Below, piece after piece: positions 10,572 to 59,158 of a stretch of 64,000 nucleotides of DNA. The position numbers and the translations under genes were made by a program. The notes under the pieces are model-generated. The model searched no databases, was not told the DNA's origin, and saw nothing but the letters and a program-made list of their open reading frames with translations. Positions within the stretch are counted from its first letter, which is position 1, and every line of letters starts with the position of its first letter. The DNA comes from Heliocidaris erythrogramma. Lineage: Eukaryota > Echinodermata > Echinoidea > Camarodonta > Echinometridae. The DNA is taken from positions 59,910,085-59,974,084 of the forward strand of contig CM046863.1 of NCBI GenBank assembly GCA_025617745.1, given 5' to 3'.

Positions 10572-10589
10572 TATTTTTTCTCCATAGTA
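10572..10589 (+). promoter_or_regulatory. Splice acceptor before the NLR start codon
   Basis: The pyrimidine tract ATTTTTTCTCCATAG ends at 10,587, giving TAATGG with the start codon at 10,590. This implies an upstream non-coding 5' UTR exon, which I cannot locate. Confidence 0.6.
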
Positions 10590-10893
10590 ATGGCGACACA
10601 GGGAGGTATTGCCGATGATCGTCTTGTTAACCTAGCTGAAGACATCGAGACGGGTGAGCAGATGGAGGCTTTAGGACGAGCTCTAGGATTCAAAACAGCA
10701 GCGATCAATAGATACACAGAGACCAATAGGATAGAAGGACGGGTGACGTGTAAGGGAACACGTGACATGCTGTTTGACTGGAGACAGACAGTGGATCCCT
10801 CCTACCAACATTCCAAGCTGAAACAAGCTCTAGAAGAGGCCAACCTTGTCATGCTGTCTCGGAACCATCTCAAGGACACACCAAAACTACCAG
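10590..10893 (+). CDS. NLR gene, coding exon 1: DEATH domain
   Basis: This exon encodes the N-terminal adaptor-binding domain of an NLR-like immune receptor. Residues about 10-94 form a six-helix DEATH fold by pattern: RLVNLAEDI, MEALGRALGF, INRY, the GTRDMLFDWRQ core with W64, then LKQALEEANLVML. DEATH domains mediate homotypic interactions with signalling adaptors in the cytosol. The start MATQ follows directly on a splice acceptor. The exon is 304 nt and ends ACCAG before GTGGGC, leaving one base of a glycine codon (phase 1). That matches the phase of all four downstream linker exons. The next coding sequence is about 14.6 kb away. The donor is weak but is the only nearby GT with the correct phase. 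DEATH assignment is from pattern, not a search. Confidence 0.85.
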
Positions 10894-25491: not shown

Positions 25492-25557
25492 GTGCGTATC
25501 TACCAAAGGAGCAGGAACCATGCGATGAGAACAAGACTGCTCTGCAAGCTAACCCAG
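25492..25557 (+). CDS. NLR gene, linker exon copy 1
   Basis: This 66-nt exon follows a consensus acceptor (ATCTTTTGCAG) and precedes donor GTATGA. It is phase 1-1, so it can be skipped or repeated without shifting frame. Its 22 residues begin GAYLPKEQEP and continue CDENKTALQANP: polar, acidic and proline-containing, with no fold. It would join the DEATH domain to the next linker or to NACHT. Three homologous exons follow. The function is presumably a flexible spacer. Confidence 0.75.
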
Positions 25558-25872
25558 GTATGATTGAAACATAAGACTGATTGAAACATAAGGCAACGGA
25601 GGACATCAGACTTGTTTTTTTTTAATTTTAAGTCCCTCAACATTCATTTCATTTGAATTATGATGCAGTAAATCTTAATTCGAATATCCCTTTCGGAAAT
25701 ATGGACCTTAAGAATAATTAATTCTTCTCTTTTTATGAATTATGAATCCTTTTCCATTTTTGGAATTAGGAAGCTTCAGAATTACGAACTGTTCAAAATT
25801 ATGAACTTTTGGAGGAAAAAAAAATTACATGTAACAAATTTTTCTAAAACTATGTATAGCCTTTCCACCTTA

Positions 25873-26610
25873 GGGGCCGTCAAATATAAAAAAAAGAATC
25901 AGCCAGTCCGACTTCTCTGCGAGCTCAAAACGGCATTTTCGCCCGGAATACGGCCGAATGCGGCCGGTGTCTGCTCGATCACTGCGAGCTCCGTCGTTTG
26001 TTTTTTTAGGGGTCGGCCTCAGGGCACCGAAATCTGCTCCCAAATCAGCGAATAACGTAAACAGATCGCCCGGAAATCTCTCAGGCATCGGAAAACATTA
26101 CATCGACATTCGGGCGGGAATCCGACGATTTTAGACCTTTTGTAGGTTTTAAAATTAGAGCGGAGCTCGGTAGACCTGCGTGGCTGCCGCACGGGCTCCC
26201 TACGATATTCGAACGACCCCCTTCCGTATCCCGCCAGACTTTTACAAAATCGGGTGTGCTTCAAGCGCGCTCAGTGGTGATGTCGTGTCGGCGTACGTCG
26301 GGCGGCTCAGGAATTTTACCCCGTGGGTATAATCATATACTTCAACATAGAATTAGCGCCCTTCTGGCTCGCTAGGAAATCGGGCGGAACTGGCCTGGGC
26401 GTCGCCCTTAAGTCGAGCGGACTTCGCCGGACTCCCGTTTGATCCTGACGGGCACTGCGCGACTTCTGACAACTATTTTTTTTTAATGGCTCGGCCCAAG
26501 CCCCGTCCAGTATGTGACAAGGTAGATTTAAAGCGAAAAATACGCTCGACTCCCTGGCCGATTTGAAATTCGGCGATTTGTGGCGATCTTTAAATTCGTC
26601 CGACGATCGT
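25873..26610. other. CpG-rich insertion in unit 1, identity unknown
   Basis: This block starts at GGGGCCGTCAAATATAA and is absent from the equivalent intron position of the other units. It is much richer in CG dinucleotides (CGCCCGGAATACGGCCG-like stretches) than its surroundings. Open frames on both strands have no motif. No clear terminal inverted repeat was found. Confidence 0.4.
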
Positions 26611-27422
26611 TGGATATGTGACGCAGGCATAACGTCACATACTTTACCAAACCCAGTGAAATACTTCTTTCGACTTTTCACCAGCTCCATATCTCTAGAT
26701 TCTAAGCGAGCCTCCTGGTTGTCAACGGGAACATACTCGATGAAAATTTCAAAAAAATACATTAAATTTTTTTTTAAAATAAAAGCGTGGTTAACTACAA
26801 TGATTACAGGTTGGGCAGTCTATGTTTTTTAATCCTCATTGCCCTTTTGCATTGTCACCTCACAATTATTATCTAAGATTGGCTTTCCCACCAAGCTGGC
26901 GCAATAATTGTTTTTGTTTTAATTCCATATTTGTTTAATCGTTCTTCCATTCAGGGAAATTAGAACTAGATGACAAACACTGGAGAAAAATCTTAGCAGG
27001 GGTGCCGGAAATAATCATATTTTATCGCCCATATGAGGGCAGTTCATCAGTACGAAGCTCCAAACCCTCTGTGGGTGCTCTGTTGTCTTTGGCTTTAAAT
27101 GAACAGTGAAGCTAGGGATAGAGCTTTAGTTGCTTGAGTAAAGTGACGATGTAAAGTCATGAATATGAGTTAATTCAAGCTTCCAACACTTACAATACGC
27201 CAGCCTAGGCCTATTTCAATAAATTTTGAAACAATATTTCTTTGTCTATTGTAGGTTCAACAGTTTTATTTTTCATTACTCTGAAAAAAAATATTTCACA
27301 TTGCAAAAATTATGTTTACTGTCCATTTATATGAAGTATGTTGCTTGTATTATGCCTCTCGATTGAAAATGTATAGTAATGTGAAGGGGGAAAAGGGAAA
27401 TTAAATTCTTGATCTCTTGCAG

Positions 27423-27485
27423 GTGCATACTTACCAAAGCAGCAGGAACCGTGTGACGATAACACTCCACTGCAAACTAACCCTG
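27423..27485 (+). CDS. NLR gene, linker exon copy 2 (weak donor)
   Basis: This 63-nt exon is one codon shorter than the others, lacking the Lys after DDN. It starts GAYLPKQQEPCDDN and ends PLQTNP, phase 1-1, with acceptor GATCTCTTGCAG. The donor reads CTG before GTTGTA. Compared with the GTATGGTTGT of its sisters it has lost about five bases, giving a poor site. It may be skipped or dying. The reading frame itself is intact. Confidence 0.6.
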
Positions 27486-28215
27486 GTTGTAACATAATGA
27501 AACAAATCACATGAGTTTTTTAAAGTGTTGTTTATCTCCCTTAACGCACATTTATGGTGTGGAAATATGAATTCTGGTGCAGTGTATATGAATTCGGATA
27601 TTATTTTCGGAAATATGAAACCTTTGGAATAATTAGCTCTTTTTCATTTTCACTTCATTTTAAGAATTATGAATCCTTTTCTTTTTCCTGAATTATAAAT
27701 CTTTCTTTTTTTTTTTTTTTTGGAATTACGAACCCTATTTCAATTATGAACCATCGTTTGCTTGCGTATTACACTGTCATGTCTTTACTTTTTACATTTA
27801 AAATTGGATTCATGATTCATCCTACCTTGTGGAGAACATTCTGAAGATTACATCACTAGCACATGGATTTCAAAAACTAATTTGTGGATTTATCAGCTAT
27901 CTGAAGACCTATTTGTTGAGTTCTACATCTATTTCTTTCTCGAAGAGGACACGAGATTTCAACAAATTTTAGCTTCAGTCCCACGTATGTATTTATCTGA
28001 TGCAAACTATTATTTTTGCTTCAGTCCCATGTACGTACTTACTTGGTGCTAACTGTCAATTTAAATTGGCAGATGACAATTAACTAAACTCGCCTTGTTA
28101 GCTCTTAAAGGAAGTCATTTCGTAACTGGTATTTTATTGAGATCTACAATAATTTTCCGTGTGAAATAAGCCAAGTGATAATTTCCTTCCTCGTTCTGTC
28201 TATACAATGTAAAAT

Positions 28216-29016
28216 ATGGCAGTACCGACAGAAGGTGACCTTGATTTGGATGACCTAGTTAACAAAGTGAAAGCGAGTAATGATTTCAAAGGAGCAATTG
28301 AAAGATTAGTGAGAGAAGTAGTACAAAAAGAACTTATCGACATGGTTAATAAAATTGAAAGTCAAGAAGGAAGAATTTTGGAATTAGAAGTGAATAATGA
28401 AAGGAAGACAAAAGAAATCTCAAAGCTGTCAGCTGAGCTGGAGCAACAAAAGTCGGCAACAACTGAATTATACAATTCTTGCAACGATCTTGAGCAATAT
28501 TCAAGACGTAATAGTGTTAGATTCTTTGGTATTCCTGAAAGCAATGATGAAGATGTGGTAGAAAAGGTCTGTAAAGTAGCCAAAGAAAAATTAGGAATCA
28601 ACCTTCCGAAAACAGCAATTGATCGTGCTCATCGAGTTGGTTTAAGGAAACAACGGAATGTCAATGATAACAAGGGAACGCTCAAAACAAATCACGAGAG
28701 AGGGTCTGGAGGGTCTGGAGGAACACAGTACCACAAAACATCGGAGCAAAAACCTCGACCGATCATCATTAAAATAATATCATATCAAATGAGAAAATTT
28801 CTCATCACTCAACGAAGAAAACTGAAAAATACTGGAATGTCAATACAGGAAGATCTAACTAAAAGAAACCAAAAACTTCTCCATGACACAGGTAAACACA
28901 GCAAAGTGATATCTGCATGGTCATCTAATGGAAGAGCAGTAGCTCTTCTACCAGCCACAGGTGGCAAAACAATCACAAAAGGGATCAGGGATCTCAATGA
29001 CCTGAAACTATTGTAG
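28216..29016 (+). CDS. LINE ORF1 protein (coiled coil plus RRM-like domain)
   Basis: This intact 266-residue ORF has an ATG start. Residues about 35-90 form a heptad-rich coiled coil (IESQEGRILELEVNNE, EISKLSAELEQQ). These precede the LEQYSRRNSVRFFGIPE motif (residues 92-108), which is the start of the RRM-like RNA-binding domain in L1/CR1-type ORF1 proteins. RAHRVG follows at about 139. A C-terminal segment with MRKFLITQRRKLKNTG, SIQEDLTKRN and NGRAVAL resembles the ORF1 C-terminal domain. These proteins coat LINE RNA and act as nucleic-acid chaperones. A short Gly/Ser/Thr-rich insertion lies at 155-175. It is intact while ORF2 is broken. Confidence 0.85.
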   Translation: MAVPTEGDLDLDDLVNKVKASNDFKGAIERLVREVVQKELIDMVNKIESQEGRILELEVNNERKTKEISKLSAELEQQKSATTELYNSCNDLEQYSRRNSVRFFGIPESNDEDVVEKVCKVAKEKLGINLPKTAIDRAHRVGLRKQRNVNDNKGTLKTNHERGSGGSGGTQYHKTSEQKPRPIIIKIISYQMRKFLITQRRKLKNTGMSIQEDLTKRNQKLLHDTGKHSKVISAWSSNGRAVALLPATGGKTITKGIRDLNDLKLL

Positions 29017-29113
29017 ACACTCTTAGATCTCGTTGATGTTCTAGTTACTATTTTTTGGGGGGTTTTTTTCCCCCCCACCTTCCATATGTAAATGCTGATT
29101 TTCATATTTCAAT

Positions 29114-29287
29114 ATGGGAGTTAAGTATCCATGTGTATGCTGTAGTAAGCCAGTGAAACGAAATCAAAAAGCACTCGCATGTACAAAGTGTAGGGAATGG
29201 GTTCACATTGTTTGTGGCAGAATTCCTTTATGTAAATATAATGATCCACTAGAAACATTTGATAACTGGCAATGCCGTAAATGTTAA
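29114..29287 (+). CDS. LINE PHD-finger ORF
   Basis: A 57-residue frame beginning MGVKYPCVCC contains spaced metal ligands CxxC, LACTKCREWVHIVC and NWQCRKC: the C4HC3 pattern of a PHD finger with the usual Trp two residues before the last Cys pair. PHD fingers bind histone tails, and CR1-like elements are known to carry them. The stop TAA at 29,285 is in the same frame as the endonuclease that follows. The finger may therefore be the N-terminus of ORF2 cut off by a nonsense change, or be expressed separately. Confidence 0.8.
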   Translation: MGVKYPCVCCSKPVKRNQKALACTKCREWVHIVCGRIPLCKYNDPLETFDNWQCRKC

Positions 29288-32200
29288 TTGCAGGTATTAC
29301 CCTTTTGGGATATTGCTGGTGAAGAAAATAATAAGTCCTGTACGTCAGAAAATATAAGTAATTGTGATGATGCTGACCCTGATAATAATACAGGGGAAAC
29401 AAGCGATGATGCATTTCCGTATGGAAAAGGAATTAGAATTGCCCATGTAAATATCAGAAGTATAAGAAATAAGGTGATTGATGTTCAGCAATATTTGACA
29501 AATAATAAATATGATTTGTTTAGTTTGTCCGAAACATGGTTAAATGATGAAGTATGTATGAATGAAATCAATTGTGTGCCAGGGTATAAATTCGAGGGTA
29601 AACATAGAGGGTCAGCTGGAGGAGGAGTAGGTTGCTACACAAAGGAAAATATTTCTTACTTAAGAAGAGAAGACTTTGAATGTGACAACATAGAATTGAT
29701 GTGGTTAGAAATCAAAAGACATCAGAGCAGTTCCTATTTTGTGGGAGTTTTGTATAGAAAACCATCTGGTGATGCAACTTCTTTTTTTAATACACTTGAA
29801 GAAAATATGTGAGCCAACGCCTCAAAACCTACAATAAGTCGCCAAAATTATTTTTTTTGTTTTATACATTTTCTGAAAGTAGAGATTCTCAGCTTTTCAA
29901 TGGTATATCACTTGCCGAGTTTACTCAATGATAACACCTTTAAATATCACATTTAGAATCAGTATGTAACCAGCAATCAATAACTCCTATTCAGAGAAAA
30001 TGGCCATTTTAATAATAAGTTCGGAACAAAAGAGTGCTAAACCTTCGCTCTCTGTGTGCGCCCAAGTAAAACTGGGTATTCAAAATTAATGGCCATAGCA
30101 ACCAGTATGAAGGGATTATCAGATTAGTCTGTTTTTTGGCAGGCTGCTCCAGGAGGACCTATTCATTACTCACTCCAAAAATCAATTTAATACCTTTAGA
30201 TGTAAAGTAGTATTTTGGCATTGAATGAAAGTATTACAAAAGCTCTTCAAACACTCATTAGCTCGAAAGATGAAAGAAGGAGTCATTTTAAAATGCCCCC
30301 AAAACATATTTCTAAGTCGTATTACGACTCACAAACTTGAGACATGATAGAATGATAATGAAACTACCCATTTCTATCAAAAACAGAAAATCCACTGATC
30401 CAAGCAAGTTTACTATTTTGGGCTGTTTGCTACGTTGTGGTCCGTGCGACTTATTGTAGGTTTTGAGGCGGCGGGTCACATATTGATAATGTATTCTGTG
30501 TCACAAACAATATTATTATTTTGGGTGACTTCAATTGTAATATGATGATCAGCAATCATTTATCTGATCAAGTGAATGAATTATGTAGAAATTTTAATAT
30601 GCGTCAGATGATCAATGATCATACCCGTATAACTCCCCATAGTAAAACACTTATTGATTTGATACTGGTTTCAGATGTAATTACTTGTTTTAAATCAGGT
30701 GTTCAAATAATCGGATTAAGTGATCACTCGTTGATCTATTTAGTAGTAAATGGGAGCATTTCATTATTAAAACCCAAAATTTGCAAGTTCAGATCATTCA
30801 GAACATTTGATGAACAAAATTTTCAGGAAGATTTGAGTAAAGTAGATTGGTGTGAATCTGGAATAGAAAAGGACGTTGAGCAGCTTTGGCAGAACTTTAA
30901 AACTACGTTTCAGAAATAAGTGATAAACATGCCCCGTATGTCACGGTTCGCCGGAAACAAACAGGGGTACCGTGGATTAATGATGAATACATTCAGATAG
31001 CCAGACAGCGGGATTATTTTCACAAGATATTTTATAAAACAAACGAGTCTGAATACTGGGATAAGTTTAAGCATTTTCGTAACAAGGCAAATAATCTAAA
31101 TAAAAGGTTAAAGAAAAGGTTTTATGAGAAGGAACTGGAAAACTGTGGAAATGACATTGGTCAAAACTGGCGTATACTAAAAAACTTATTGCCTAGCAAA
31201 AAAGGTGTTAGTGAAACGAAAATAATTATAAATGGTGAATTTATTACAGACAAAAATATTATTGCTGAAATCTTGAATAAGACTTTTAACGAATTTGCAG
31301 AGAATCTAGCACAAGATGCTCAAAATTTGGTTGAGGATGTAAATAGCATGAATACTTTGTTTTTGGCAGATAAGAATTTTGTGTTTGAAGAAATAAAAGA
31401 AAAGTTTGTTCTGAAAGAATTGCAGAATCTTAATACTAAAAAAGCAGGTGGTGTCGATGGACTACATCTTAAATTATTGAAAAGGTCTGCCTCTTCTATT
31501 ATTAAACCTCTTACAAAATTGTTTAATAAATCACTTGAAACAGGAAAAATCCCTCAATAATTTAAAAAAGCTAAGATTATTCCAATAAATAAAGGTGGTT
31601 CCTATGAACCACAAAATTTTAGACCTATTTCGCTTCTGCCAGTGGTCTCAAAAATATTAGAAAAGGCAGTACATCAACAGCTTTACACTTATTTAAATAA
31701 TAATGGTCTTTTATGTGATCGACAGTCTGGGTTCAGACCTCTCCACTCGACGACAACCTGTTTGACAGAAATTGTTGATTTTATCTTTGATAATATGGAC
31801 TCTGGTCAAATCACTGGGGGTCTATTTTTAGACCTCCAGAAAGCATTTGACGTTATTCCTATTGATTTAATTCTTGAAAAAATGTATTAATATGGCATTA
31901 AAGATTCTGAGTTGCAGTGGTTTAAAATGTATTTAACTGAAAGGCAACAGTGTGTCTCAATAGAAGGTACAACAAGTTCTTTTTTAAATGTCAAGACTGG
32001 TGTCCCTCAGGGGTCCATACTTGGGCCCCTGATATTATTTTGGTTTATACGTTAATGATATAGGTAATCTACGTTTTCATAGTAAAACAAAGGTGTGTTT
32101 ATATGCAGATGACACTGCACTTTTTAACTCAAATAAAGATATAACGACAATTCAAGAAAATTTGCAATTTGATGGCTTAGACTTAATCGCATGTACTTAC

Positions 32201-32886
32201 ATCCTCAAAAAACTAAGGTAATGGCCTTTGGTAATAAGCGTAAATTAAACAATAGGAAAGTAACCATTAAATTTCAGAATACTGTACTAAAGCATGTTGA
32301 TAATATTAAATATATTGGGGTGATTTTTGATTCTCAGTTAAATTGGACATTACATATTCAGTATATATCAAGTAAAATATCACGGTCTATTGCTTGTATT
32401 AGGAGAATCAAACATCTTACCAACACGAAACAGTTGAAACATTTATATTTTGCATTGATATTGTCATACATTGATTACTGTTGTACGGTCTGGGGTAATT
32501 GTTCCAAAACTAACTTAACTCGGTTACAGAAACTACAGAATAGATATGCCCGTCTAGTTTTGAATACAGACTATTCAACTTCACAATGTTCTTTATTAAC
32601 TACCCTGAATTGGCAGTCTGTCGATCAAAGAATTAAATATCAAAAATGTCTGTTAGTGTATAAGATTTGGAATGATTCTGTACCAAATTATTTGAAACCT
32701 TTGTCTGTTATGCGATCTATTACCTATAATACACGTTATGCCACAAGCAGTCGTCTACAAATACCCCACCCTAAAACAGAATATAAAAAACGATCTTTTT
32801 CATTTTCTGGAAATTCTTTATTTAATAAATTACCACTATTTGTTCAAAACTGTAAGACAATAAGTAATTTCAAAAAAAAAATGTAA
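29288..32886 (+). pseudogene. LINE ORF2: endonuclease and reverse transcriptase, broken
   Basis: Order of domains: the AP-type endonuclease begins with IAHVNIRSIRNK and LSETWLND (29,440-29,560), is split by the 671-bp insert, then continues ILGDFNCN (30,513) and LSDHSLIY (30,716). The reverse transcriptase shows FRPISLLPVVSKILEKAVH (31,620), LDLQKAFD (31,831), GVPQGSILGP (32,000) and catalytic YADDTAL (32,102). The thumb and C-terminus follow (32,191-32,886). There is a frameshift near 30,916, in-frame stops at 31,558 and 31,888, a frameshift near 32,035 and another near 32,170. It is dead for retrotransposition. Confidence 0.9.
29809..30479. mobile_element. 671-bp inverted-repeat element inside the LINE endonuclease
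   Basis: The ends GTGAGCC..CGCCTCAAAACC and GGTTTTGAGGCG..GGGTCAC are inverted over about 34 bp (CGCCTCAAAACCTACAATAA is fully shared). ATAT flanks both ends (29,805 and 30,480), a likely 4-bp target duplication. Joining across the element with one ATAT restores the endonuclease frame exactly. No transposase frame is present. Confidence 0.85.
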
Positions 32887-33375
32887 AAATGTTTGTAACA
32901 TGCTTTGAAGAACTAACTGGCTTTTAAAGATTTTTAATGTATTTACTTGTTTGTGTATGTATACCGTCGAGCGCCGACTAATTGGCAAACGAGGGCCTTG
33001 TGCTTTTCGGCATGTTTCTTGTGGGTTGCCGCCCGATTCGGCATGGACTGCTGTCGAAGGAATACTTATTAATAGTGTCTTTGAAATGCTGCATTGTGCT
33101 GTTTCCTTTTGTGGTTTCGGATAGATGCTCTCTTTTGGGGGGAGGGGGATGGAGTGGCGGACTTTGCTGGGCACCGGGCCCGTGTGGTCTGTTGGTTGGC
33201 TCTCTACGGTATCTTGTGAATTTAATGTTTCCATGTTTGATATTTTGTTGATATTACATTTTTGTGGAGGGCTCCGTTGTAAAGCAGTTGCATAACTGAA
33301 TCGGACTACCCTCCACCGTTTTACTTGTCATAAATAAAACATGAATAAATAAATAAATAAATAAATAAATAAATT

Positions 33376-34045
33376 ACAAAGCTTCGGAATAACGAACTTT
33401 TCGTAATTTTGAACCATCGGGAAAAAAACATGTAACCATGTTTTCAGCAACTACATGTATGCTTAGCTTTTCCCCCTTTAAAGGGACAAATAATTGATCA
33501 CATATAGGGGAGATTGAAAGGTATGGAATTTGCAAAATTCTCGGTTACGTGTACACATAGCACGCCTCTTTAATATGCGTGTTTGTCGGCCTAAGTAACG
33601 CAATAAAAGTTTAGACGGCACGTACTTCACCAAACGAAGGGTAATGCTTCGTTAAAATTTATACCAGTTCAATATCTATATATCCTCATGGAGCTTCCAA
33701 GTTGTCAATCGGAACAAAGTCGATGCAACTTACAAAAGATAAAGACATGGTTAACTACCATGACTGCTTGTTGGCTAGTCTTTGCTCCTCATTACCCCGC
33801 TGCATCGTCACCCACTCAGCTGGCACAATAATTGTTTTCTATATTTATAAAACTGTTTTTCCATTCTGTAAAATTAGACTGAGAGGAATATTACCAGTAA
33901 AAATCAACAAAACAAATTATAGCAAGAGTCGAGGAAATAAACAAAATTCATCGCACGTTTGTTATATTCGAAGCTCCGAATGTGTAGTCTTCTATCATCT
34001 CAAACCGCCCATGTGTGCTCAGTTGTCTTTGGCTTTAAATGCATT
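33376..34045 (+). repeat. Remainder of linker unit 2 after the LINE
   Basis: Resumes with CTTCGGAATAACGAAC, then GTATGGAATTTGC, ACTTCACCAAACGAAGG, TCGATGCAACTTAC and GTTGTCTTTGGCTTTAAATG, in the same order as the other units. Open frames here are not supported as coding. Confidence 0.65.
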
Positions 34046-34330
34046 GCAAAAGGGGCGCAAAACACAACAGAGAGAAAGAAAAAAGAGAAAATGCAGAAAA
34101 TTATGATCATTCAGGATTATGCGTCCATGTCCGCAGCGTAATTTTTTTCGGGGGGGGGGGGGTAAAAATTAAAAAAAGAATAATCTAAAGCTCGGTCGCT
34201 TTGCTCCCTCCCATAATTTAAAAGGGTTCAATCAGCCTCTGGAAGAAATATTTTGCCACCAATTTAGGATAAAATGTTTAAATTGCATTTGCAAAGGTTC
34301 ACCATTTGAAAGAACTCTAGCCTGTCAATT
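34046..34330. repeat. Dispersed GGGGCGCAAAA repeat, copy 1
   Basis: The block contains GGGGCGCAAAACACAACA, a poly-G run near 34,150, AAAGCTCGGTCGCTTTGCTC and GCATTTGCAAAGGTTCA. These markers recur in the same order at 45,440-46,130 and 48,220-48,830. It breaks into the linker duplication. Confidence 0.6.
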
Positions 34331-35040
34331 CCCTTGCTAAATAAACACAACACAACACAAAAAATAAGTTCCCCCTAAAAAAAATCTCTGTAATTCCTGA
34401 ATCAGAAACCTGAAGATACCTGAATACAGAAACATATAGCTGTACTTCTTCGTTACCTTTAATGTAAAATTCAGGGGAAATCATTTGGTCACGCCTCAGT
34501 GAGCACGTACCCCTAAAGCAAAATGGCCACTTTTTAAAGTTCCCAAGCCCAATTTCATAACTTTGATTCAATGATATCGGAATAAATTTCATTTTTTTAG
34601 TATCAAAAGGCATGCAACATACGTTTCATGTGCTTTGTAAGATACCAGATGACTTGTGCGCAAAGTTTAAGAGTAAGTTTCTACAAAAAGAAAGAGGGTC
34701 GTGTTCTAGCATTAATTGTAACTTTGTAAGCAGTGTCGATTTCGTGTGAGACGGATGCTTCTTGTTGAATTTTATCATAAGGAAATAATGAAAATTTATG
34801 TTTCATAAGATATACGAGAAAAATTGACTTAATATAGTCCGGGAGTCACGGGGGTCAACCTAGCTGGAAAAGAAACCAAATTTCATGTGCATGAATGTAA
34901 AGATCGCATCGTCCGATATAACGAATTGACTGTCTGGCATGTTCTATGTGGTGGGTGTGGCCAGGGGGAGGTCACAAAGTGGTCAAAAAATGAGTTTGAT
35001 CAGCTGGAAAGGAAACCCTAAGAAACCTATATGACAAGGT
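34331..35040. other. No gene seen; partial GAAAGGAAAC repeat
   Basis: AT-rich sequence. TAGCTGGAAAAGAAACC near 34,860 and AGCTGGAAAGGAAACCCTAA near 35,003 belong to the ~150-bp repeat family of 16.6-17.1 kb. Confidence 0.45.
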
Positions 35041-35044
35041 TTGC

Positions 35045-35280
35045 CAATTCTTTGGAATGCCTTACCCATTTCTCTTAAATCCATAGATTCTCTTGAAAAG
35101 CTCAAAACACATCTTTAAACACATTTATTCAATACCGCCTTCTCTGATTGACTTCTCTAAGCTTAAGTTTATAGTCTTCATCTATGTATTTCCTCTCTTC
35201 CGCGCCTCGGAATAGGCTACCTAGATAGATGGCACATTATGAATACTATTATTATTATTATGATTATTATTATGTATTCC
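35045..35280 (+). pseudogene. LINE RT 3' end fragment
   Basis: TTTGGAATGCCTTACCCATT encodes FWNALP, followed by SLKSIDSLEKLKTHL, the conserved C-terminus of CR1/L2 RT. The 3' UTR ends in AATACTATTATTATTATTAT. Only the last about 35 codons remain. Confidence 0.7.
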
Positions 35281-35800
35281 CAAGGTACATGAATGGGTGC
35301 TGCCAGACGTTTTAAGTGGTGAGGTGCCCGCCAGACGGCCCAAAGTTGTCCGAAAAATTGAGCTAGATCACCTGGAAGGGAAACCCGATGAAACAAATTT
35401 TGTAAATTGTTCGGCAGAGTCCAAATATACAAAAAATGACCACTGCCAGACACTCCTAATGTTACCCCCCCCCCCCCCCCCAATTATCAAGCTTGGTCAG
35501 CTAGAAAGGAAACCTTATGAAACCGTTGGAAAGTAATCGCCAGAGTATAAACGTACGCAATGATGACCACTACCAGGCGATTTAAGTGGGGGGGGGGGGG
35601 GGGGGGGATACGCCCAAGATCCCCTCCCCCCCCCCATACACTGAGCGAGATCAGGTGGACTCGAAAATTCGTGAGAACAAACCGAAAAAACAACAAACAA
35701 ATAAAAAACGTATCGTCTTTGTTCAGACCTACATAGATACTGCCAGACATTGTATGTTGTGGGATCTGCCCCCTCCCCATCCAGTAAGCACGCCCTTAAG
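35281..35800 (+). repeat. ~150-bp GAAAGGAAAC / CCAGACG repeat, further copies
   Basis: Three diverged units contain GACCACTGCCAGACACTC, GAAAGGAAACCTTATGAAAC and GCCAGACGTTTTAAGTGG. They are interrupted by poly-C (35,467), poly-G (35,588) and poly-C (35,627) runs. Same family as 16.54-17.11 kb. Confidence 0.65.
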
Positions 35801-36589
35801 GTAGTTTCCAGGCACAAACCCGTCAGTCGTAAAAGAGTGTATGTACTGTAAGACTACCATTGGCCCTGAACTATAGCTTTGCTGCTTCTCAATTACTATT
35901 TTGATTTCCATGTATTAAAAAAAGAGAAAACTCTCTTGCATCTATTTGTAAAACAACCAGATGCTAATTTGTAACTACATTCAGTGAGGAAATCGGCTGC
36001 GTATATGTTGTAATAGATGTCTAGGTTTGTTTCCTTTCGGAACCAATTATTATTCCGATTTTTTTGTGAGTTTGACAATAATGTCCTGAGAAATACACAA
36101 TTCAATGATCTTACTAGTGCATTGTTTAATATCTTCCCAAAAGTAACGATAGAATGCTACAGTAAAACCATGTTGTTGGGATTATTGTTTTTCATGAGTT
36201 TTAAAGTAGGATAGACCTTGTCAGCGCTGAGTTGACATTCTAGTATTGTGAGGACAACTTATAGGCAGTGTTTGGAATGTCAGGGTAATTGAATGTAACT
36301 GAAGTTTATTCCATCAGTTTCTTTTTCCGTATAAAGATTTGATTAAAATCAAACACTTCTCTGAGTATGTCATTTTGCCTTTCAAATATATTACCATTTT
36401 CAGTCGATTTTCAATACGATAACTGACGTATTTCTCTATTGATATTATTTTGTTTTTTCCAAATTTAAAAAGAATTTAAAAGGTTTTGTCTCCAACCTGC
36501 ACCCTCTTTATCCGAGATCTGATTGATATTCTTTCTTTTGTTTTTAAACGGAAACCTTCCAATTCAAGAAATTCAATTCTCATTTATTT
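35801..36589. other. No gene seen
   Basis: AT-rich intronic sequence. Opposite-strand open frames around 35,896-36,214 have no motif. Confidence 0.35.
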
Positions 36590-36835
36590 AATTTCCAATT
36601 AAAAAGTACATTCAAAACAAATACAAAATATGTCATAAACGGAATTAGAAAATGGGGCAGAAGGGGCACGATAGGGACATCCCATGCATATGCGAAGGGC
36701 CTTTTTCTGTAATTTAAATAATTTATCTAATTTAGTTCGACTACAATTGCCCCAAACAGCAACACATTAATTTAGGTATGAGAGCATAAATGAATTGTAT
36801 AATAGTATTAAAGCAGAAGGCGGAAGCGAGTCTTT
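36590..36835 (-). pseudogene. LINE RT connection-domain fragment
   Basis: The minus strand reads FMLSYLN, a stop, then CVAVWGNCSRTKLDKLFKLQ and KKALRICMG, the conserved segment after the RT core in CR1-like elements. Short and decayed. Confidence 0.65.
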
Positions 36836-37264
36836 TAATCTATACAAAATACCAATACAAAATATGTCTTAACATGGTTCTAGATAAAAACTACTTCGCA
36901 GTTGAGTGTAATGGTTTGATTATTCATTTGCGAGGGAGCAAAATATTGAAGATATTTTGAATAGCAGCGATTTTCCTAATATGATAAGAAGACAATGGTA
37001 AATGCGAGCGAGCGTAGGGGGAAAGCTTTGGAAAATTTTAGAAAAATTTGTCCTCCTTCCTGTTATGATTTAGGGGGATTGCTCATTCTTGTATAACATA
37101 GGGAATTGTGCCCCTCCTGCCCCCTGCTCCACTGCCTCTCATTGTGCTGATATCAGTAGGGAATCTATTATTATGAAACCTCTCTGATTATTTGGATCTA
37201 CATGTAGGTAGGCCTATGTGGCTTTTAGGGCACAGTTTGTAGCGACATCGGAGTATAGAGGTAA
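36836..37264. other. No gene seen
   Basis: AT-rich sequence with no recognisable repeat or coding signal. Confidence 0.35.
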
Positions 37265-38135
37265 AATAATATTAAATATATATAGGTATCAGAAGACAAA
37301 AGGGGCACTTATCAAAAGGGAAAATAATACTATTAGAAAGAAAAAAGAGCGCTGATCAAAAGTAAAAGGGGCACTTACAAAGAGGCATTTATCAGAGGTG
37401 GAAAGGACACTTATCATAAGGAAAAATTGAACTATTACAACGGAAAATTGGCACCAATCAGACGAAAACGGGGACACTTGTCGGATTTCAAAGGGGCACT
37501 TGTCTTATCTGAGCTTAAAAGGGGCACTTATCAGAAGGTGAAAACAGCACTTATTAGAAAGAAAAAGGTGCAGTCATAAGGAGAAAAAGGGTCACTTATC
37601 ATAAGGAAAAATTGCACGAAAACAGGGACACTTGTCTTATCTGAGCTTAAAAGGGACACTTATCAGAAGGTGAAAAGGGAACTTATTAGAAAGAAGAAGG
37701 GGCAGTCATTCAAAGAAAAACAGTCACTTATCAGAGGTGAAAAAGGGCACTTATGAAATGAAAATTGTACTATTAGAACAGAAAATGGGCACTTATCAGA
37801 CGAAAAACAAAGGCACAAATTTAAAAAGGGGCAGTAATATTTGAAGTTAAATGGGCACTTATCAGAAGGGGAAAAGGGCATTTATCAGGGAGAAGAAGGG
37901 GCGCAGTTATACAAAGGAAAAGGGGCACTTATTAGAAGTGAAAAAAGGGCACTCAGAAAGAAAAAATGTACTATTAGAACGGGAAATGGGCACCGATTAG
38001 ACAAAATAAAGGGCAATTATTAGATTTTATAAGGGGCAGTAATGTCTGAGGTTAAAGGGGGCATATATTAGAAGGTAAAAGGGCACTTATTTGAAAGAAA
38101 ATTGGGGCCACTTATCAGCTATGAAAGGGGGCACT
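37265..38135 (+). repeat. Degenerate minisatellite (GGGGCACTTATCAGA family)
   Basis: About 25-30 units of 28-38 bp are built from AAAGGGGCACTTATCAGAAGG with alternating GGGGCAGTCAT and ACTATTAGAACGGAAAATGG variants. The open frames inside it are by-products. A poly-C run ends it near 38,171. Confidence 0.8.
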
Positions 38136-38289
38136 TTTGGGGTACTTGAAAAAGTGGGGGTGGCACGTGCCCCCCCCCCCCCCGGGAGCGCCACCTCTGA
38201 GAGGCAGTCATGATGATAGAGAAATGCAAGGATACAATAAAGAAAATGCTATTACAGATACAGGGTACGAATCGACATAAGATTGGGTT

Positions 38290-38995
38290 GCGTACATTTA
38301 GATGGAATTCATATTAAATATAGGGGAGATGGAATTTGTGACATGCTCGTTTATTTGTATACATAGCACGCCTGTTATCCTTAACCGTCGGCTTAACGCA
38401 CGGACTTCACCGAATCCAGTGGTATACTTCGACGTGTTACCAGTTCACTATCTGTAAATTCTAAGTGAGCCTCCTAGTTGTCAACTGGAACATACTCGAT
38501 GAAAAATTCAAAGAAAAATAAAAACATGGTTAACTACAATGATTACTGGTTGGGTGGACTATTTTCTTTTTATTTTTCATTTTTATTTCTTGGTTTCTCC
38601 TTTTGTACTGTTGCCCCACAATTATCTAAGATTGGCTTTCCCACCGAGCTGGCAAAATATATATTTTTTAAATTCCATATTTTCTTTTTAATTACATATT
38701 TTTTTAAAATTGTTCTTTCATTGAGTGAATTTAGATCTAGATGACAAACACCGCATCTTAGCAGGGGTTCCGGAAATAATAATATTTCAACGCCCATATG
38801 AGGGCACCTCATAACTCCCGAATGAATACTTGATATACGAAGCTGCAATGGAGTTGTCCTCTCTCACCCGAACCCTCTATGGGTGCTCTGTTGTCTTTGG
38901 CTTTAAATAAACAGTGAAGGGAATACAGCTTTAGTTGCTTGAGTAAAGTTTGTAATATCATAAATTGGAGTTAATTCAAGCCTTCAAAAGTTACA
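38290..38995 (+). repeat. Exon-less linker unit remnant
   Basis: Contains ATAGGGGAGATGGAATTTG, GGACTTCACCGAATCCAG, CATACTCGATGAAAAATTC, GGTTAACTACAATGATTAC and TTGTCTTTGGCTTTAAAT in unit order, ahead of linker exon 3. It is a second post-exon segment without its own exon, so one linker exon has been lost or displaced between 34.0 and 38.3 kb. Confidence 0.65.
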
Positions 38996-39245
38996 ATAGG
39001 TGAGCCTATATAGGATATATTTCAGTAAAGTTTGAAACATCATTTCTTTGTCTATTGTAGTAGATTCAACAGTTTTACTTTTCATTACCGGAACTCTGAA
39101 AAAATTGCACATTGGAGAAAATTATGTTTGCAGTCCATTTAGATGAGATATGTTGTTTGTAATATGCCTCTCGCTTGTTTTAAAGATGTATTTCATGTAA
39201 TGAGAAGAAGAACAAAAAAGTGAATGAATTCTTCATCTCTTGCAG

Positions 39246-39311
39246 GTGCATATCTACCAAACCAGCAGGAACCATATGACGAGATCAAGACTCCACTGCA
39301 AACTAACCAAG
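39246..39311 (+). CDS. NLR gene, linker exon copy 3
   Basis: A 66-nt exon, phase 1-1, with acceptor CTTCATCTCTTGCAG and donor GTATGG. The peptide starts GAYLPNQQEPYDEI and ends KTPLQTNQ. Copies 3 and 4 have Tyr where copies 1 and 2 have Cys (PYDE versus PCDE). They end TNQ rather than ANP or TNP, so 3/4 are the closest pair. Flanking intron sequence is shared with copies 1, 2 and 4. Confidence 0.8.
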
Positions 39312-40297
39312 GTATGGTTATGATAATTTGTGATATAATGCAACATAAGCTCACATATTTTAGGTCTTTGCTTATCTCCCTTAACACTCATACCATAGTG
39401 TGGAAATATGAGTACCGATGCAGTGAGTATGAATTAAAAAAAATAGATACAGGGCTCAATTCCATTTTCAGAAATATGAGCCTTCGGAATTATGAACTCT
39501 TTTGCATTTTAGGAATTATGAACCCTTTTCAATTTCCTGAATTATGAACCCTTTTTCATTTTCGGAATATACAAACCCTATATTATTTTCCGCATTATCA
39601 ACCTTCGGAATAATGAACCTTCAGAAAAAAAAAACGACTGGAACGGCGTATTTTGGACGCCTATGTTAATAGCCTTTCTTCCTTCGAAGGGACAACTAAA
39701 TGATTATATTGACAGGTGAGTTGGAAGCGTATGGAATTTATGAAATGCTTTGCTTGTACACAAACCACGCCCGATATGTGTGTCAGTCGGCCTAATTAAC
39801 GCCATAAAAGTTTGGACGGCATGGACTTCACTGAACCCAGCGGAATGCTTTCATCAGTTCCATTACTATCTTGTCAATAGATTCTACAAGCGAGTTTCCT
39901 AGTTGACAACCGGAAAAAACTCGATGCAAATTTCAAAAAATAAAAACATCGTTAACTCCCTTGACTACTGGTATGACTGGTTGGTTAGTCTATACTTTGC
40001 TCCTCATCAATCCCATTGCATCAACGCCTACATTGATCTAAGACTGGCTTTACCACCGAGCCGAAACAATGATTGTTTTTTCCATTTTCGTATATTAGAA
40101 CTAGATGACAAACGCCAGAAAGAGGACGATCATCAAGGCGCTACAAACAACACTGATAATTGCTCATGAGAAACAATATGTTTACGGTCTATTTAGATGG
40201 GAAATGTTAATAAGTCTCTTGCTTGTTTATGGATGTGATGTAATGAGTCATAAGTGGGGGGAAATAATTATGTTAATGGATTCTTAATCTCTTGCAG

Positions 40298-40363
40298 GTG
40301 AATATCTACCAAACCAGCAGGACCCATATGAAGAGAACAAGACTCCACTGCAAACTAACCAAG
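40298..40363 (+). CDS. NLR gene, linker exon copy 4
   Basis: A 66-nt exon, phase 1-1, with acceptor TTAATCTCTTGCAG and donor GTATGG. The peptide starts GEYLPNQQDPYEEN and ends KTPLQTNQ. It lies 376 bp before the NACHT exon and is the most likely constitutive linker. The last base is the G of a codon completed by AT at the start of the NACHT exon. Confidence 0.8.
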
Positions 40364-40739
40364 GTATGGTTGTGACATAAGGCAACAAAGCACATGCGAC
40401 ATTATGTATAAATGTGTTATATTATGTTGTATTTCATAGTGTGGATATAAGGAGTATTACATTCAGTCAGTATGATTTCTGTTTTTATTTATGATTTTCA
40501 GTAAGGTTTAATATTATTGTTTGTTCATATTTTGTTAATCTGAAAACTCGTTTTACTATAATTATAAGAGAGAGGGAGAGAGAAAGAGGGGTGGCATTTA
40601 GTCAGGCAAACATGATAAGAGAGCAATGATACATGGGGGGGGGGGGGGTGATGCCCAACTTCTTCACACAATATACTGTGACACAACATGAGTTAAGATG
40701 AAGGTGAATGGTTTGTGTTTTGTGATTGGATCGTTTCAG

Positions 40740-42325
40740 ATATCTACAATATGAAGATCTCAGAGTCCTTGACTGTCATGCGATGTCGTGACAAATTGGT
40801 GAATAAATACCTCAATTCATACTGCAAAATCCAGATGGCTCCATGGGATCCAAAGAAATTTGCTGAGATCGAAGACATGCACACATTGGTCACTATGGTG
40901 AAGAAGGACGCACATGGAAAAGACACTTGGAAGAAGGAGATACTCCAGGGGTCTGTTGCTGAAATATTTTCAACGAAAGTAAACGGCAGGCTACCAGTTC
41001 GAATCCTCATTTCGGCCCCCGCTGGGCGAGGGAAGACAACAGCTGTCGCTAAAATGGCTTACGACTGGGCTAACAGAGTGCAAGGATCGACCCTTGAAAA
41101 CTTGCCTCTTCTCTTTGTTGTTAAGCTACGAAACACCAGCCAACAGACATCAATCGCAGAAGCAATCAGATCTCAGCTATTGAATGACGTTGCAGATCTA
41201 ACCCAAGATGGACTACACGGATTTATCAGTGAAAATCAAGGCATTTGTCACATCATACTAGACGGGCTAGATGAGTATGCCGGTATTACCGCAAACAAAG
41301 GTTTGAGAAGCAACATTGTCGATGTGATGGAGTGGGAGGAATATCCAGAGTGTCGAGTCCTGGTAACAACACGCCCCCACCTCGAGAACTTCTTCAGTCA
41401 GGGAGAACTTCCAAGGGTATACACACATATGTGGATCGAAGGATTCTCTCGTGATAGCTCAAGAGAGTACATCGACAAGTTTTTCGACTCGACTTTGAAC
41501 CCCTCTAACGGACAAGGTCTCAAGGTGTACCTCGATGGTCAACCACTGATTAATGAACTTGTTATAACTCCACTGTTTTGTCTCATGGTTTGTCACTTAT
41601 GGAGCGGGGACATGCTGGGGAGTGATACTACAACCCAAACACAACTGCTGGACAGGGTGAATGTATTTTTGATGCACCATGCCAATGCCAAATCAAAGTC
41701 AAAAGACAAGATTACAGAGAAAAAACTAGGTGAAATCATTTGTAAACTTGGTAAGGTTGCCCTTGTTGGTCTGCTTGACGATGCCAAAAAGCTAGTTTTC
41801 ACACCTCATGATTTCCGAAAGGTTCCTGCTATCCTTGACAAGGCATGTAAGCTTGGGATAATATCTCAGGTGACAGTTACATCAGCAGGCTTTCCACAAT
41901 CCAACAAGACCACTTCTACTACCATCGAATTTTACCACAAACTCGCGCAGGAACACTCGGCTGGGAAACATCTCGCAGCCAAGTCGAATACATTTTTAAT
42001 GCGAATGAAGATTTCTAAGTTGGACAGAGTCCTGCGCAACATCACAGGAAACATCGGCGACTACGAAAATCTCATCCGATTCGCTGCTGGCACGGACAAC
42101 GGCCTCTGTATTAGAATAATGGAGGCCATCCTTGCCAACGGCAATCTGGATGAGAGCGAGCGATATCGCATTCTCCTTGACTGCTCATCAGAGACCACGG
42201 GTACTGAAGGAAAGGTGTCTTCGTTGGTTCAAGAATGCGTAGCTGCACAGAGTATTGTACTTAAGTCACCGACTGTCTACACCGTTGTTGGAATGCAAAA
42301 TCTTCCAAAGCAGCTGAAACATACG
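40740..42325 (+). CDS. NLR gene, NACHT ATPase exon
   Basis: This 1,586-nt exon (about 528 codons) has acceptor GGATCGTTTCAG and donor ACG before GTACGC; it enters in phase 1 and exits in phase 0. The P-loop APAGRGKTT lies at 41,015-41,041. The Walker B motif ILDGLDEY at 41,255-41,278 has the extended acidic D-E pair. The sensor-like VLVTTRPH follows at about 41,357. After these come a PLFCLMVCHLW segment typical of the NACHT-associated helices and a FYHKLAQEHSAGKHLA helix. The P-loop has Ala-Pro-Ala where the usual consensus is Gly-x-Pro-Gly, but keeps Gly-Lys-Thr. NACHT binds ATP/dATP and drives oligomerisation of NLR sensors. There are no stops or frameshifts and the exon is probably functional. 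Base composition is clearly more GC-rich than the introns. Confidence 0.95.
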
Positions 42326-49098: not shown

Positions 49099-49556
49099 CA
49101 TGAACATGGATCGACACCCCTCTCCATGGGCCTTAAGGAAAGAAATTTTTAGGGGCCGTCTGACAACCCATCCAGACGGAAAATGTTATCAATTGTTTGT
49201 GTTTTGGTAATGTATACCAAAAAAAAAAAAACACGGAAAGAAAACGACATCAACGGTGCATGACAGTTGATAAAAAAGAATAATCGGTAGTGATGTTGTT
49301 TTTGTTTCACTTTCAAGTCATTATCTTGATTTTTTTAAAGCTATTGTTTCCTTACTGTATTACAATGGCCGAACTTCTGAACTTCAGTGATTTAGCATTT
49401 GCCTTTTTTTTTCTTCACTTGACCAATTTTGTAAATTGGTATATGTTACAAAACATTGAAATCATAGTAAGTGGTCATATCAAAATCAACCTTAATGATT
49501 TCACTTCACGCCCCCCTCTTGAATCAATCCATCTTTCACAACCATTACTACAACAG

Positions 49557-50035
49557 GTTAGAGAAGTTAAATTTGAGGGATCTTCTATTACTATCGACGT
49601 GACGAATGGGTTATGGTCCTGCCTGGGATCATTTTCGATGCTACATACTCTCATCATCTCAGACTCCTCTCTGAGTTTCCCGTCATCTTCACCTAAGCTT
49701 CCAGTCGTCACAAAGCTTATAGCAAAGGGGGTGACGGCACAAAGCTACGAAGGTCTGCTCTCATCGCTCCCAGGCTTGAAAGAGATCGATATCACTATCG
49801 ATGATGCAGAGAGGAACATTACGGCCAGCTCTAGGCCTATGCGTCATCAGACCGGGGATCACGTCTCATCCTCACTTTCAACAGAAGAGATGACTGGCTC
49901 GAAAGACACGATTGCAGGACTAGGCCTTCTGATCAGCGAACAAACCCCAAACCAACAATGGCTACATTTGTTCGGGCAGAAGGGCAGAGATGAGGAATCC
50001 TTGGTTGACCTCTTTGGCAAGTCATTGCAGTTAAA
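49557..50035 (+). CDS. NLR gene, LRR-like exon A
   Basis: Starting VREVKFEG after CTACAACAG and ending TTAAA before GTGAGT, this 479-nt exon enters in phase 0 and exits in phase 2. It aligns without gaps over its first ~75 residues with exon B: LWSCLGSFSMLHTLIISDSS, LPVVTKLIAKGVT, SYEGLLSSLPGLKEIDITID. The LxxLxIS and LPxLxEIDI spacing is leucine-rich-repeat-like. The second half has GLGLLISEQ, also shared. The start is set by equal length to exon B. The polypyrimidine tract is modest and an upstream extension of the open frame cannot be excluded. It follows the phase-0 end of NACHT. Confidence 0.7.
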
Positions 50036-51900
50036 GTGAGTAGGCCCTAGGCTAGATCTAACGTTAAATCTAAACTAGTAACTGCCTATGCTATAGCCTA
50101 GCCCTACGCCTAAGTTCTAACACAGCTGCTGTTACTGTTAGTGTTAGTTAATGTCAATAATGCACGTTTTCAGGTCGATATCAATGCCGGCGCCGATGTC
50201 AAATTTTGTTCTTAAAAATGAAGGGGTCCTAAAGCTACGCACATGCAATAAATGAATGCAAATTGATATTGAAATTGACTGTGTGTATCGCGTGTGTGTT
50301 TTAGCCTTATTTGAACGCGTTGCATTGTGCGTGTATGTGTTTTGTATGGTGCGTAGCAACGAACGTAGAGGGCGGCAACACTTTGCAGTCTTGCTATGAG
50401 GAAGGTTCACTTCGCTAAATTTCTGTGACCATCGTTTTCTCTCAGAGAGGTTTTTAGGTAGATTGTAGATTTGATTTTTTTTTCAATTTATACTTTCAAA
50501 AACATTTGAATTAAAATGTTAAAATCAGATGTTATGTTCAATAATATTTGTCAATGATTTTTATAATTTTCAAGAGAAAAAAGATTAAAATAGTTATAAA
50601 TTTATCATTTCACTTTACGATACAATAATATGTATTTGTGAGGTTGCTAACGTTTTCCTGCTATATTTCGCTGCTACTGCTGTATTTCGATTTCGATCCA
50701 TGTCCATACAGTGTATGTGCATATATACCGTGTACATTATTGCTACACAAATACAGTTCTCTCTCTCTCGATCTGACCGCCTATAGACTCAGAGTCAGAG
50801 TCAGAGCTCGACGATGGATCAATCAAGGTTTGATTTTAGTTATAAATTTAGATTAACTTATTTGAAATGATGATGAAACAAATTTGGCAATCCAGGGTAA
50901 TAAAATAGTGTTAGCATGCATGTCGTTAATATGTTAAATTTAAAAAAAATGTTCGGATGCTGGATGGAGCGATGATGATCATGATGATGGATGGGGGATC
51001 AGATTCGGATGACCGGACACTTAACAAAAATGAAAAAATAAGGTGGCTGGGACATAAGGAATTCTTGCCGTGATAATCATCATCGATATATTTTTCTATT
51101 TAATATCGGGCAAACCCACAAAATAGGGGCAGGTCGGCGTGCGCGTGCCATGTTTTACAATTACAGTGCGGAGAGGCGGCAGAGGCAAAAATGAACACAT
51201 GTAACAAGTTCATAATCAAGTTCAAAACAACTTCCAAATATATTTTAAATCAAGTAATTAATGCTGTGATAATCATATTGGCCTCTTGGCTTTCAGATTT
51301 GTAATTGTTTGATGAAAATCATAACGATTTTGGCCAGAAATGGAGTCAAACTCGCAAATGTTTCATCGCTGAATCTGGTACAAGATCGTCGCCGCCGCCG
51401 CCGCTGGGCTACATTTGCTTGCACACAAATGAATACAGCACGCGCAGACCGGCCCCTATTCTCCGGGTTTGCCTAATATCGTCTAAGTTAGATCAAAATA
51501 GGTCTAACTTAGGCCTAACATTAACAAAGTTAACGTTAACCATAATGATAATTGTATTTGTAACTTGTAACTTTTCACAAACTTGAGACAAGGTCAAACT
51601 CAAAGGCAAGCATCATGATGTTTTTATTTTTTTTTTAATTTCAAGATAGAGAGAGGGAGAGGGGTTCATATTTAGTCTTGGTTCTACTATTTGTAGACCA
51701 GAATCAAAGCACTTTTAATGAGAGGTAATAATACATCTCCACAGAGTAATCATATGGATGGCCTTTGTTGTTTCACTCAGTGACTTTCAGTAATCACATT
51801 CATTAGTCTCATGTTGACTTTGATTGCCCTCAGATAAACATGGCAAGGAACTAACTTGTGGCTGATCCACTTGAAGAGCCTAATGTTAGAGGTCTACATA
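50036..51900. other. Intron: no secure gene
   Basis: A 65-bp segment (50,350-50,415: GTAGAGGGCGGCAACACTTT and flanks) is repeated in inverted orientation at 56,232-56,297. A short ATGGATCAATCAAG before GTTTGA (50,813-50,826), downstream of an ATATATACC box, could be a first exon but has little support. Confidence 0.4.
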
Positions 51901-58505: not shown

Positions 58506-59158
58506 GTAAGTATATATTTTGTAATACTGAAACGTGCACATATAGCTTTAAAATATGAAAGAAAGCGATATTCTCTACATGGTGGGAAATCACATCAAAA
58601 TGACACTGTTTGTTTAAAACAATTAAATATTTTAGCTGAATGTTATTAAAGTGATACTTTGGACTTTTTTTTAAATTCTCGCTACCTCAAATATGCAATT
58701 TTCGACGTAGAGGGCAATATTATGCATGGAAATGGTCCGCATCTTCGTCAACTTCACTTCCGGTCCGTATTGAAATACTACGGCTTATGAATAAAATGAG
58801 TGCTAAAATGCTTAATTTTTGGGATCGCATGACATAAACCACTCAAATTTTGAAAATGCAACCAATTGTCTCAATAAATCATGGTATCTTGTCAAACATG
58901 TCGGTTAATTTATACTCAAACTCGAGGATTTTTGTAATACCTGTGTATATTTTCAATGCAAAAAGACAAAGACTTGTCGACCCAATCGGGATATTGTCAG
59001 CACTGCGCATGCGTGGTTTGCATGACAAACGGCATCTGTTGGCGAAATTGCGTATTTGGGGTAGCGAGAATTGACATTTTCCACTCGTTCCCTATGTAGT
59101 GTCATGTATAGCCGATGCATGTGAATGTGACAAGTGTTCTGTTTGCATTTCATTGCAG
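58506..59158. other. Intron before exon B: no gene seen
   Basis: An AT-rich intron ending in the acceptor GTTTGCATTTCATTGCAG. Minus-strand frames are shadows. Confidence 0.5.

Follow-up and report, generated by a model that had tools for sequence, protein, structure and literature searches.

Arrays of small phase-symmetric linker exons between Death-type and NACHT exons in a subfamily of sea urchin NLR genes

A 64,000-nucleotide stretch of the genome of the sea urchin Heliocidaris erythrogramma (contig CM046863.1, here C11, of assembly GCA_025617745.1; 1.06 Gb in 26 contigs) contains a nucleotide-binding domain and leucine-rich repeat (NLR) gene in which four small linker exons lie between a Death-like exon and the NACHT exon. 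We call this whole stretch the window and count positions from its first letter. The initial annotation treated the linker array as a feature of one gene; with 170 genomic matches, it is instead a trait of the gene family. A large clustered subfamily of DEATH-NACHT receptors holds the array, and paralogues differ in linker copy number. We favour, with moderate confidence, the reading that the window gene is one instance of this subfamily-wide array and that the array would form a tether between Death and NACHT that grows or shrinks in evolution by ~22 residues at a time.

Results

The four linker exons of the window are all on the forward strand and 5' of the NACHT exon, and each has an AG acceptor and a GT donor. 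Copy 1 (25492..25557, type A, peptide GAYLPKEQEPCDENKTALQANP), copy 3 (39246..39311, type D, GAYLPNQQEPYDEIKTPLQTNQ) and copy 4 (40298..40363, type E, GEYLPNQQDPYEENKTPLQTNQ) are 66 nt long, and copy 2 (27423..27485, type B, GAYLPKQQEPCDDNTPLQTNP) is 63 nt long; all are phase 1-1, and their places, borders and frame proved to be as first annotated. An open phase-1 frame is continuous from the Death-like exon (10588/10590-10893) through the four linkers to the NACHT exon, which starts at 40740, and, as had been proposed, the shared 1-1 phase lets any number of linkers be included with the frame unchanged. A fuzzy 34-nt pattern, run over the two strands of the window with up to 10 substitutions allowed, recovered the four copies and detected no fifth linker. 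The linker is a self-contained phase 1-1 module of 21-22 residues with the pattern G-x-Y-L-P-x-x-Q-x-P. Proline, glutamine, asparagine and glutamate together make up half of all linker residues, and a peptide of this composition is probably disordered. The window peptides had been called near-identical, a generous term: their identity by direct count is 59% (copy 1 versus 4) to 82% (copy 3 versus 4). Cysteine in copies 1-2 and tyrosine in copies 3-4, also remarked on earlier, can be read directly from the peptides.

A genomic search with a 34-nt pattern (acceptor plus exon start, up to three mismatches) gave the 170 matches, compared with none for the reversed control, indicating that the linker exons are not due to chance. 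Among the 100 matches listed, these exons lie on contigs C10, C11, C15 and C21. We read 101 copies, comprising 97 places read together with 180 bases of flank (96 from the 100 listed matches and one from another search) and the four window copies; L135 was set aside, leaving a tally of 100. Ninety-four of these are intact, with AG, GT and an open frame of 54, 63 or 66 nt. Five are broken (L056 by a frameshift, L051 and L089 by a stop, L050 and L088 by lack of a donor), and L040 is the single copy in which the AG acceptor is lost. The 95 linkers with usable donor spacing measure 54, 63 or 66 nt, always multiples of three. The search pattern reaches neither the final 38 nt of the exon nor the donor, so their integrity constitutes independent evidence. 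Four of these broken linkers form inverted pairs at C11:53178718/53179011 (L050, L051) and C11:59259622/59259916 (L088, L089), adjoining two NACHT exons; the pieces on the plus strand have the same DNA at both loci, and those on the minus strand encode the same peptide in different DNA.

Linkers were then assigned to NACHT genes, 81 of which were scored out of 346 candidates: the window gene and 80 further genomic matches to its NACHT exon, at 73-98% identity. The 119 linkers counted are the 101 listed (100 of the 170 matches and one from another search) plus 23 from a second pattern, counted without frame reading, minus the five broken copies, with L040 kept. Counts per gene are lower bounds, as diverged copies are missed and up to 46 of the 170 matches fall outside both lists, and some near-identical genes could be unpurged alleles. 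Two types of Death-like exon, DD1 (the type in the window) and DD2, were placed in the same way, from 28 of 150 matches for DD1 and the first 72 of 150 (at least 51% identity) for DD2. The distance limit for gene assignment in this tally was 50 kb, other runs having used 45 kb (linkers), 60 kb (DD1) and 60 kb; at 60 kb, two extra DD1 genes gain a linker 57-59 kb away, which we took to belong to other genes.

The exon sought near NACHT in sister NLR genes was found there, at 0 to 5 copies per gene across the 81 genes. The 49 genes with DD2 only hold 0, 1, 2, 3, 4 or 5 linkers in 14, 11, 13, 8, 2 and 1 cases, and the 18 with DD1 only hold 0, 2 or 4 in 16, 1 and 1 cases. Three of the 81 genes carry both Death types, DD2 and then DD1, and have no linker; the 11 with neither type have 0, 1 or 2 linkers in 4, 3 and 4 cases. 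In all 37 of the 37 genes that have both a Death exon and linkers, no linker falls outside the interval from the Death exon to NACHT. Linker carriers are thus 35/49 of the DD2-only genes versus 2/18 of the DD1-only genes (Fisher p = 1.3e-5), DD1 being negatively associated with linkers. Separately, one gene (G000, C11:41976027) has two DD1 Death exons in tandem before one NACHT.

DD2 was discovered by reading upstream of the first linker in four sister genes. In three of them, within the 10 kb read, it begins with ATG and ends at a phase-1 donor, and ~150 bases separate it from the linker; in the fourth it lies 15 kb upstream. It shares 52% identity with the N-terminus of XP_011669151.1 of Strongylocentrotus purpuratus, a weak match to Pfam Death (17.9 bits, cut-off 22.6). 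No Pfam family matched the DD2 copy at L136, and the copy in the S. purpuratus protein P0017 scored 17.9 bits. A six-sequence profile that includes DD2 matched the death-domain chains 9tuf_A (PIDD-CC; E = 0.010) and 2of5_H (E = 0.011), and AlphaFold models of DD2 are all-helical and weak (predicted template modelling scores 0.49 and 0.36). The idea that linkers replace the Death domain, raised by 39 linker genes without a Death exon in the DD1 list, was refuted, as DD2 sits upstream of the arrays.

Comparison of linkers between genes bears on the age of the array. Linkers that share a position in closely related sister genes (13 genes) have flanks that are mostly 95-99% identical, and linkers at different positions within one gene are 65-93% identical; same-position copies across genes match best, which shows that the array predates the duplication of these genes. 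Window copy 1 matches its same-position counterpart L102 of gene C21:1192176 at 98% in the exon and 99% in the flank. The exon of window copy 3 is 100% identical to those of the sister-gene linkers L100 and L131, and that of copy 4 is 100% identical to the final linker in each of six sister genes, the best matches shown. We propose that linker units would have been tandemly duplicated before the receptor genes multiplied, and that genes later copied together with their arrays would have gained or lost units, giving receptors that have near-identical NACHT domains and differ by whole linkers.

For the window, a tandem arrangement of ~1-kb units had been described, and homology between units is real, as homologous intron blocks flank the linkers in a self-comparison. 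These blocks are, however, fragmented: successive linkers are spaced at 1931, 11823 and 1052 bases rather than at an even 1 kb, and a long interspersed nuclear element (LINE)-like sequence and a repeat array lie between copies 2 and 3. The former is a degenerate non-LTR retrotransposon (28213..32886, forward strand) with endonuclease frames (Exo_endo_phos_2, 33.8 bits, cut-off 27.4); its reverse-transcriptase-like frames matched no reverse transcriptase family. A piece of linker-unit intron that lacks the exon (33372..34041, forward strand) is a trace of unit rearrangement in the self-comparison. The repeat array, at 37280-38160, is a degenerate tandem array with units of 21-23, 68 and 132 bases (GGGGCACTTATCAGAAGG...).

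Next, the linkers were sought in other urchins among 94 related predicted proteins (P0001-P0094), the first of a full-length protein search, whose NACHT domains are up to ~76% identical (S. purpuratus) or ~60-68% identical (Lytechinus). YLP-type linkers occur in two of the 94, both from S. purpuratus: XP_011669151.1 consists of DD2, one linker and NACHT, and in XP_011667271.1 two tandem linkers precede DD1, which is followed by NACHT. The L. pictus protein P0071 has DD2, a short GEYQAEEPIPRKS linker that keeps little of the core, and NACHT. A protein search with the linkers alone (residues 98-194 of the joined protein) returned no relative and one TPR-type protein at E = 1.2, and one with the S. 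purpuratus double linker returned itself alone. In S. purpuratus, P0024, P0030 and P0055 carry a third type of N-terminal domain (M-x-DKxALFDELSKEFP...), and a different spacer of ~40 residues precedes NACHT in P0024, P0055 and P0041.

Purifying selection on the linker peptide is at most suggested. The exon is conserved above its flank between copies 3 and 4 (62/66 versus 205/277, p = 2e-4) and between copies 2 and 4 (p = 0.004). Additionally, the ratio of nonsynonymous to synonymous substitution rates (dN/dS) is 0.52 over 39 distinct 66-nt exons; its interval of 0.27-0.99 becomes 0.26-1.07 once the set is thinned. Preservation of the reading frame is a stronger sign than dN/dS.

Several observations weigh against the tether reading. 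Conservation of exon over flank is marginal between copies 1 and 4 (p = 0.048) and not significant in three of the six window pairs. The search pattern takes in codons 2-10; when dN/dS is computed from codons 11-22 only, it is 0.55 (interval 0.23-1.31). Among the window copies, the three of 66 nt have proportions of nonsynonymous and synonymous differences of 0.128 and 0.165. Fourteen of the 49 DD2-only genes have no linker in our lists, 92 of the 94 related predicted proteins have no YLP-type linker, and the S. purpuratus and L. pictus proteins that do have linkers are gene predictions. S. purpuratus P0050 has DD2 joined straight to NACHT, which, together with the linker-free DD2 genes, indicates that linkers are dispensable. 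These observations would also suit linkers that are mostly idle relics, persisting in copied introns and seldom spliced: outside the search pattern the dN/dS interval includes 1, five of the 100 copies are broken and one is without an acceptor, and linkers are absent from 16/18 DD1-only and 14/49 DD2-only genes as well as from those 92 proteins. Set against this, 94 of the 100 copies are intact, all 95 with usable donor spacing are multiples of three, and linkers recur in the two S. purpuratus predictions and, in short form, in the L. pictus one, and we regard idle relics as improbable.

Splice signals bear on how the copies might be used. The donor of window copy 2, CTG/GTTGTA, fits the consensus at 4 of 9 positions, and among the 94 exons tallied that measure 63 or 66 nt the same weak donor occurs only in its sister-gene counterpart L101; the other 92 score 6-8 of 9, as do all but one of the ten different donor sequences. 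As first suggested, the spacer might vary by isoform or allele. Alternative inclusion of copies could in principle let one gene make several spacer lengths, given that phase 1-1 exons can be combined in any way with the frame unchanged; the weak donor of copy 2 agrees with such an isoform generator, and so do the S. purpuratus predictions with 0, 1 and 2 linkers, although these come from different genes. Phase symmetry would, however, be needed anyway for a tandem duplicate exon to be tolerated, and donors of which nine in ten score 6-8 of 9 fit constitutive use, making this alternative unlikely in our view. Under the tether reading, the linker copies would be spliced into mRNA, and the product would be a flexible tether that fixes, in increments of ~22 residues, how far the Death domain can extend from the NACHT oligomer.

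The peptide core raises a further alternative, that of a short linear motif for a partner, with copies raising avidity and the cysteine and tyrosine forms making two classes. In the copies nearest NACHT, YDEI/YEEN might be recognised by a kinase/SH2 pair. G1, Y3, P5, Q8 and N21 are invariant in all 78 of the 66-nt exons, with cysteine in 50 and tyrosine in 28 at position 11, and the core is kept in the two S. purpuratus predictions. This constancy is partly forced, since G1, Y3, P5 and Q8 lie within the search pattern and N21 alone is free; many of the 78 exons are recent copies (39 distinct DNA sequences), and the L. pictus linker retains little of the core. We consider such a docking motif quite improbable.

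Additionally, the Death-like exon of the window gene calls for comment. It is of type DD1 (10588..10893, forward strand, 306 nt; ATG at 10590, acceptor ..CCATAG/TA, donor CCAG/GTGGGC), lies 14.6 kb upstream of linker copy 1, and is 96% identical to the DD1 exon upstream of the NACHT gene at C21:5894986. Its score against Pfam Death, 20.4 bits, is under the 22.6 cut-off. The donor side at 10893 is phase 1, and with the acceptor at 10588 the other side would be phase 1 too. As it ends in the same phase, DD1 could be spliced onto the linkers. The initial placing of the linkers between DEATH and NACHT holds in phase and order, but DD1 at 10590 is not their usual partner, and DD2 is lost at this locus.

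A NACHT tree of 28 of 30 loci (L023 and L027 left out) pairs the window gene with C11:59693309, both having DD1, at support 98/92. This pair sits beside seven genes (97/95), six with DD2 upstream and one without a Death exon found. The resulting nine-gene clade (100/99) has, by counts made at the 60-kb limit, 4 and 2 linkers in the DD1 pair and 5, 4, 3, 2, 2, 3 and 3 in the others. The window and its preceding 20 kb align with C21:1192176 in collinear blocks of ~91-97%; the DD2-bearing stretch of that gene is absent from the window locus, and the window DD1 lies within ~20 kb that have no counterpart there, save small or repeated pieces. Judged from these alignments, the window gene is unusual: the array is kept, the usual DD2 is lost, and the other Death type lies upstream. 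A recent transfer of the 20-kb DD1 stretch into the window may have taken place; in the 5 kb compared, the DD1 gene L144 shows ~0.6 kb of homology at 84% around the window DD1 exon plus an 85-base piece, too short to date a transfer.

The window gene may instead be damaged, with DD2 lost, DD1 an unrelated fragment of a neighbour and the linkers no longer joined to a Death domain. The absence of the DD2 region where the sister gene has it, the position of DD1 in a stretch without sister counterpart apart from small or repeated pieces, and the scarcity of linkers in DD1 genes all point in this direction. On the other hand, the frame, start, acceptor and donor of DD1 are intact and in phase, C11:59693309 shares the layout of DD1 followed by linkers, and genes with DD2 and then DD1 exist (3/81). 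We therefore hold damage to be somewhat unlikely.

In S. purpuratus, the order of XP_011667271.1, together with P0001 and P0003, which carry PF00531 and have two DD1 domains in tandem before one NACHT, suggests that Death and linker exons may be interchangeable phase-1 modules. Tentatively, the array could then be one part of an N-terminus built of such modules, in which an old array gains or loses units (0-5) between receptors with near-identical NACHT domains and the Death domain is swapped between DD2 and DD1 at an identical splice phase, setting receptor output and assembly geometry.

Downstream of the linkers, the NACHT exon (40740..42325, forward strand) has the phase-1 acceptor TTTCAG/ATATC and the probable donor ACG/GTACGC, and scores 60.2 bits against Pfam NACHT (cut-off 26.7), identifying the domain. 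Pfam scans covered selected frames; that of 40697-42418 at E <= 0.1 yielded NACHT, nSTAND_NTPase5 and NPHP3_N only, with no FISNA (PF14484) before NACHT. A probable coding exon of the leucine-rich repeat (LRR) region (QVREVKFEG..., approximate borders 49554..50039, forward strand, 50039 being the end of the open frame) resembles the post-NACHT sequence of S. purpuratus P0017; no Pfam family was found in 49284-50039 at E <= 0.1. A possible further LRR-region exon, an open frame with approximate borders at 59075..59668 (forward strand), matches LRR_14 at 15.4 bits (cut-off 40). Between the NACHT exon and the LRR-region frame, 71 G (48915-48985) are followed after 72 bases by 38 C (49058-49095); these runs are unusually long and possibly mark a trouble spot of assembly or polymorphism. 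A satellite-like repeat with periods of 148, 304 and 454 (ATGACCTTTGACCC...) is arrayed twice, before the linkers (21429-22965) and at the window end (61960-64000), and the two arrays are inverted relative to each other.

Discussion

The initial annotation knew of no described NLR with a repeated linker-exon cassette. This does not stand: as described in PMC4852459 and PMC11192531, the zebrafish NLR-B30.2/NLR-C genes, a large clustered family, have peptides of ~30 residues before NACHT, each on its own exon and varying in number, and some members also have a death-fold domain. The likeness is a small N-terminal peptide repeated exon by exon, four times in the window gene and five times in a sister gene. 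It is a likeness of design alone, for which we claim no homology. The two systems differ in peptide length (~30 versus 21-22 residues) and in FISNA, which the fish genes have and which was not found in the window gene. Among the urchin proteins, the DEATH-NACHT predictions P0001-P0094 of S. purpuratus and Lytechinus belong to the same Death and NACHT families, and their source names mention no repeat. Our literature search, which worked from partial texts and did not extend to the original sea urchin NLR papers, met no description of an urchin linker array.

For a spacer between a signalling domain and NACHT, the closest comparison is exon 3 of NLRP3, whose 40 residues form, according to PMC13226650, the whole spacer between PYD and FISNA-NACHT. 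The same paper reports that without this exon the decamer gives way to smaller species, with inflammasome function largely retained, and that natural skipping was not observed in human cells. Both cases have a short exon as the spacer; in NLRP3 it is single and unrepeated. Control of the oligomeric state by the NLRP3 linker exon is a precedent for the importance of the spacer. In NLRP3 and other NLRs, LRR exons are also in-frame modules for which alternative splicing is reported (PMC6642158); these differ from the linkers in encoding folded LRRs at the opposite end of the protein.

The role of the NLR spacer in receptor assembly has been probed by an engineered deletion in NLRP3 (PMC13226650). 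H. erythrogramma offers a natural series in one genome, with dozens of related receptors carrying 0 to 5 spacer exons of ~22 residues and two Death-type exons. If this holds true in transcripts, spacer length would become a testable variable in NLR assembly. The series also shows that invertebrate NLR genes can regularly include small phase-symmetric exons, which domain scans readily overlook.

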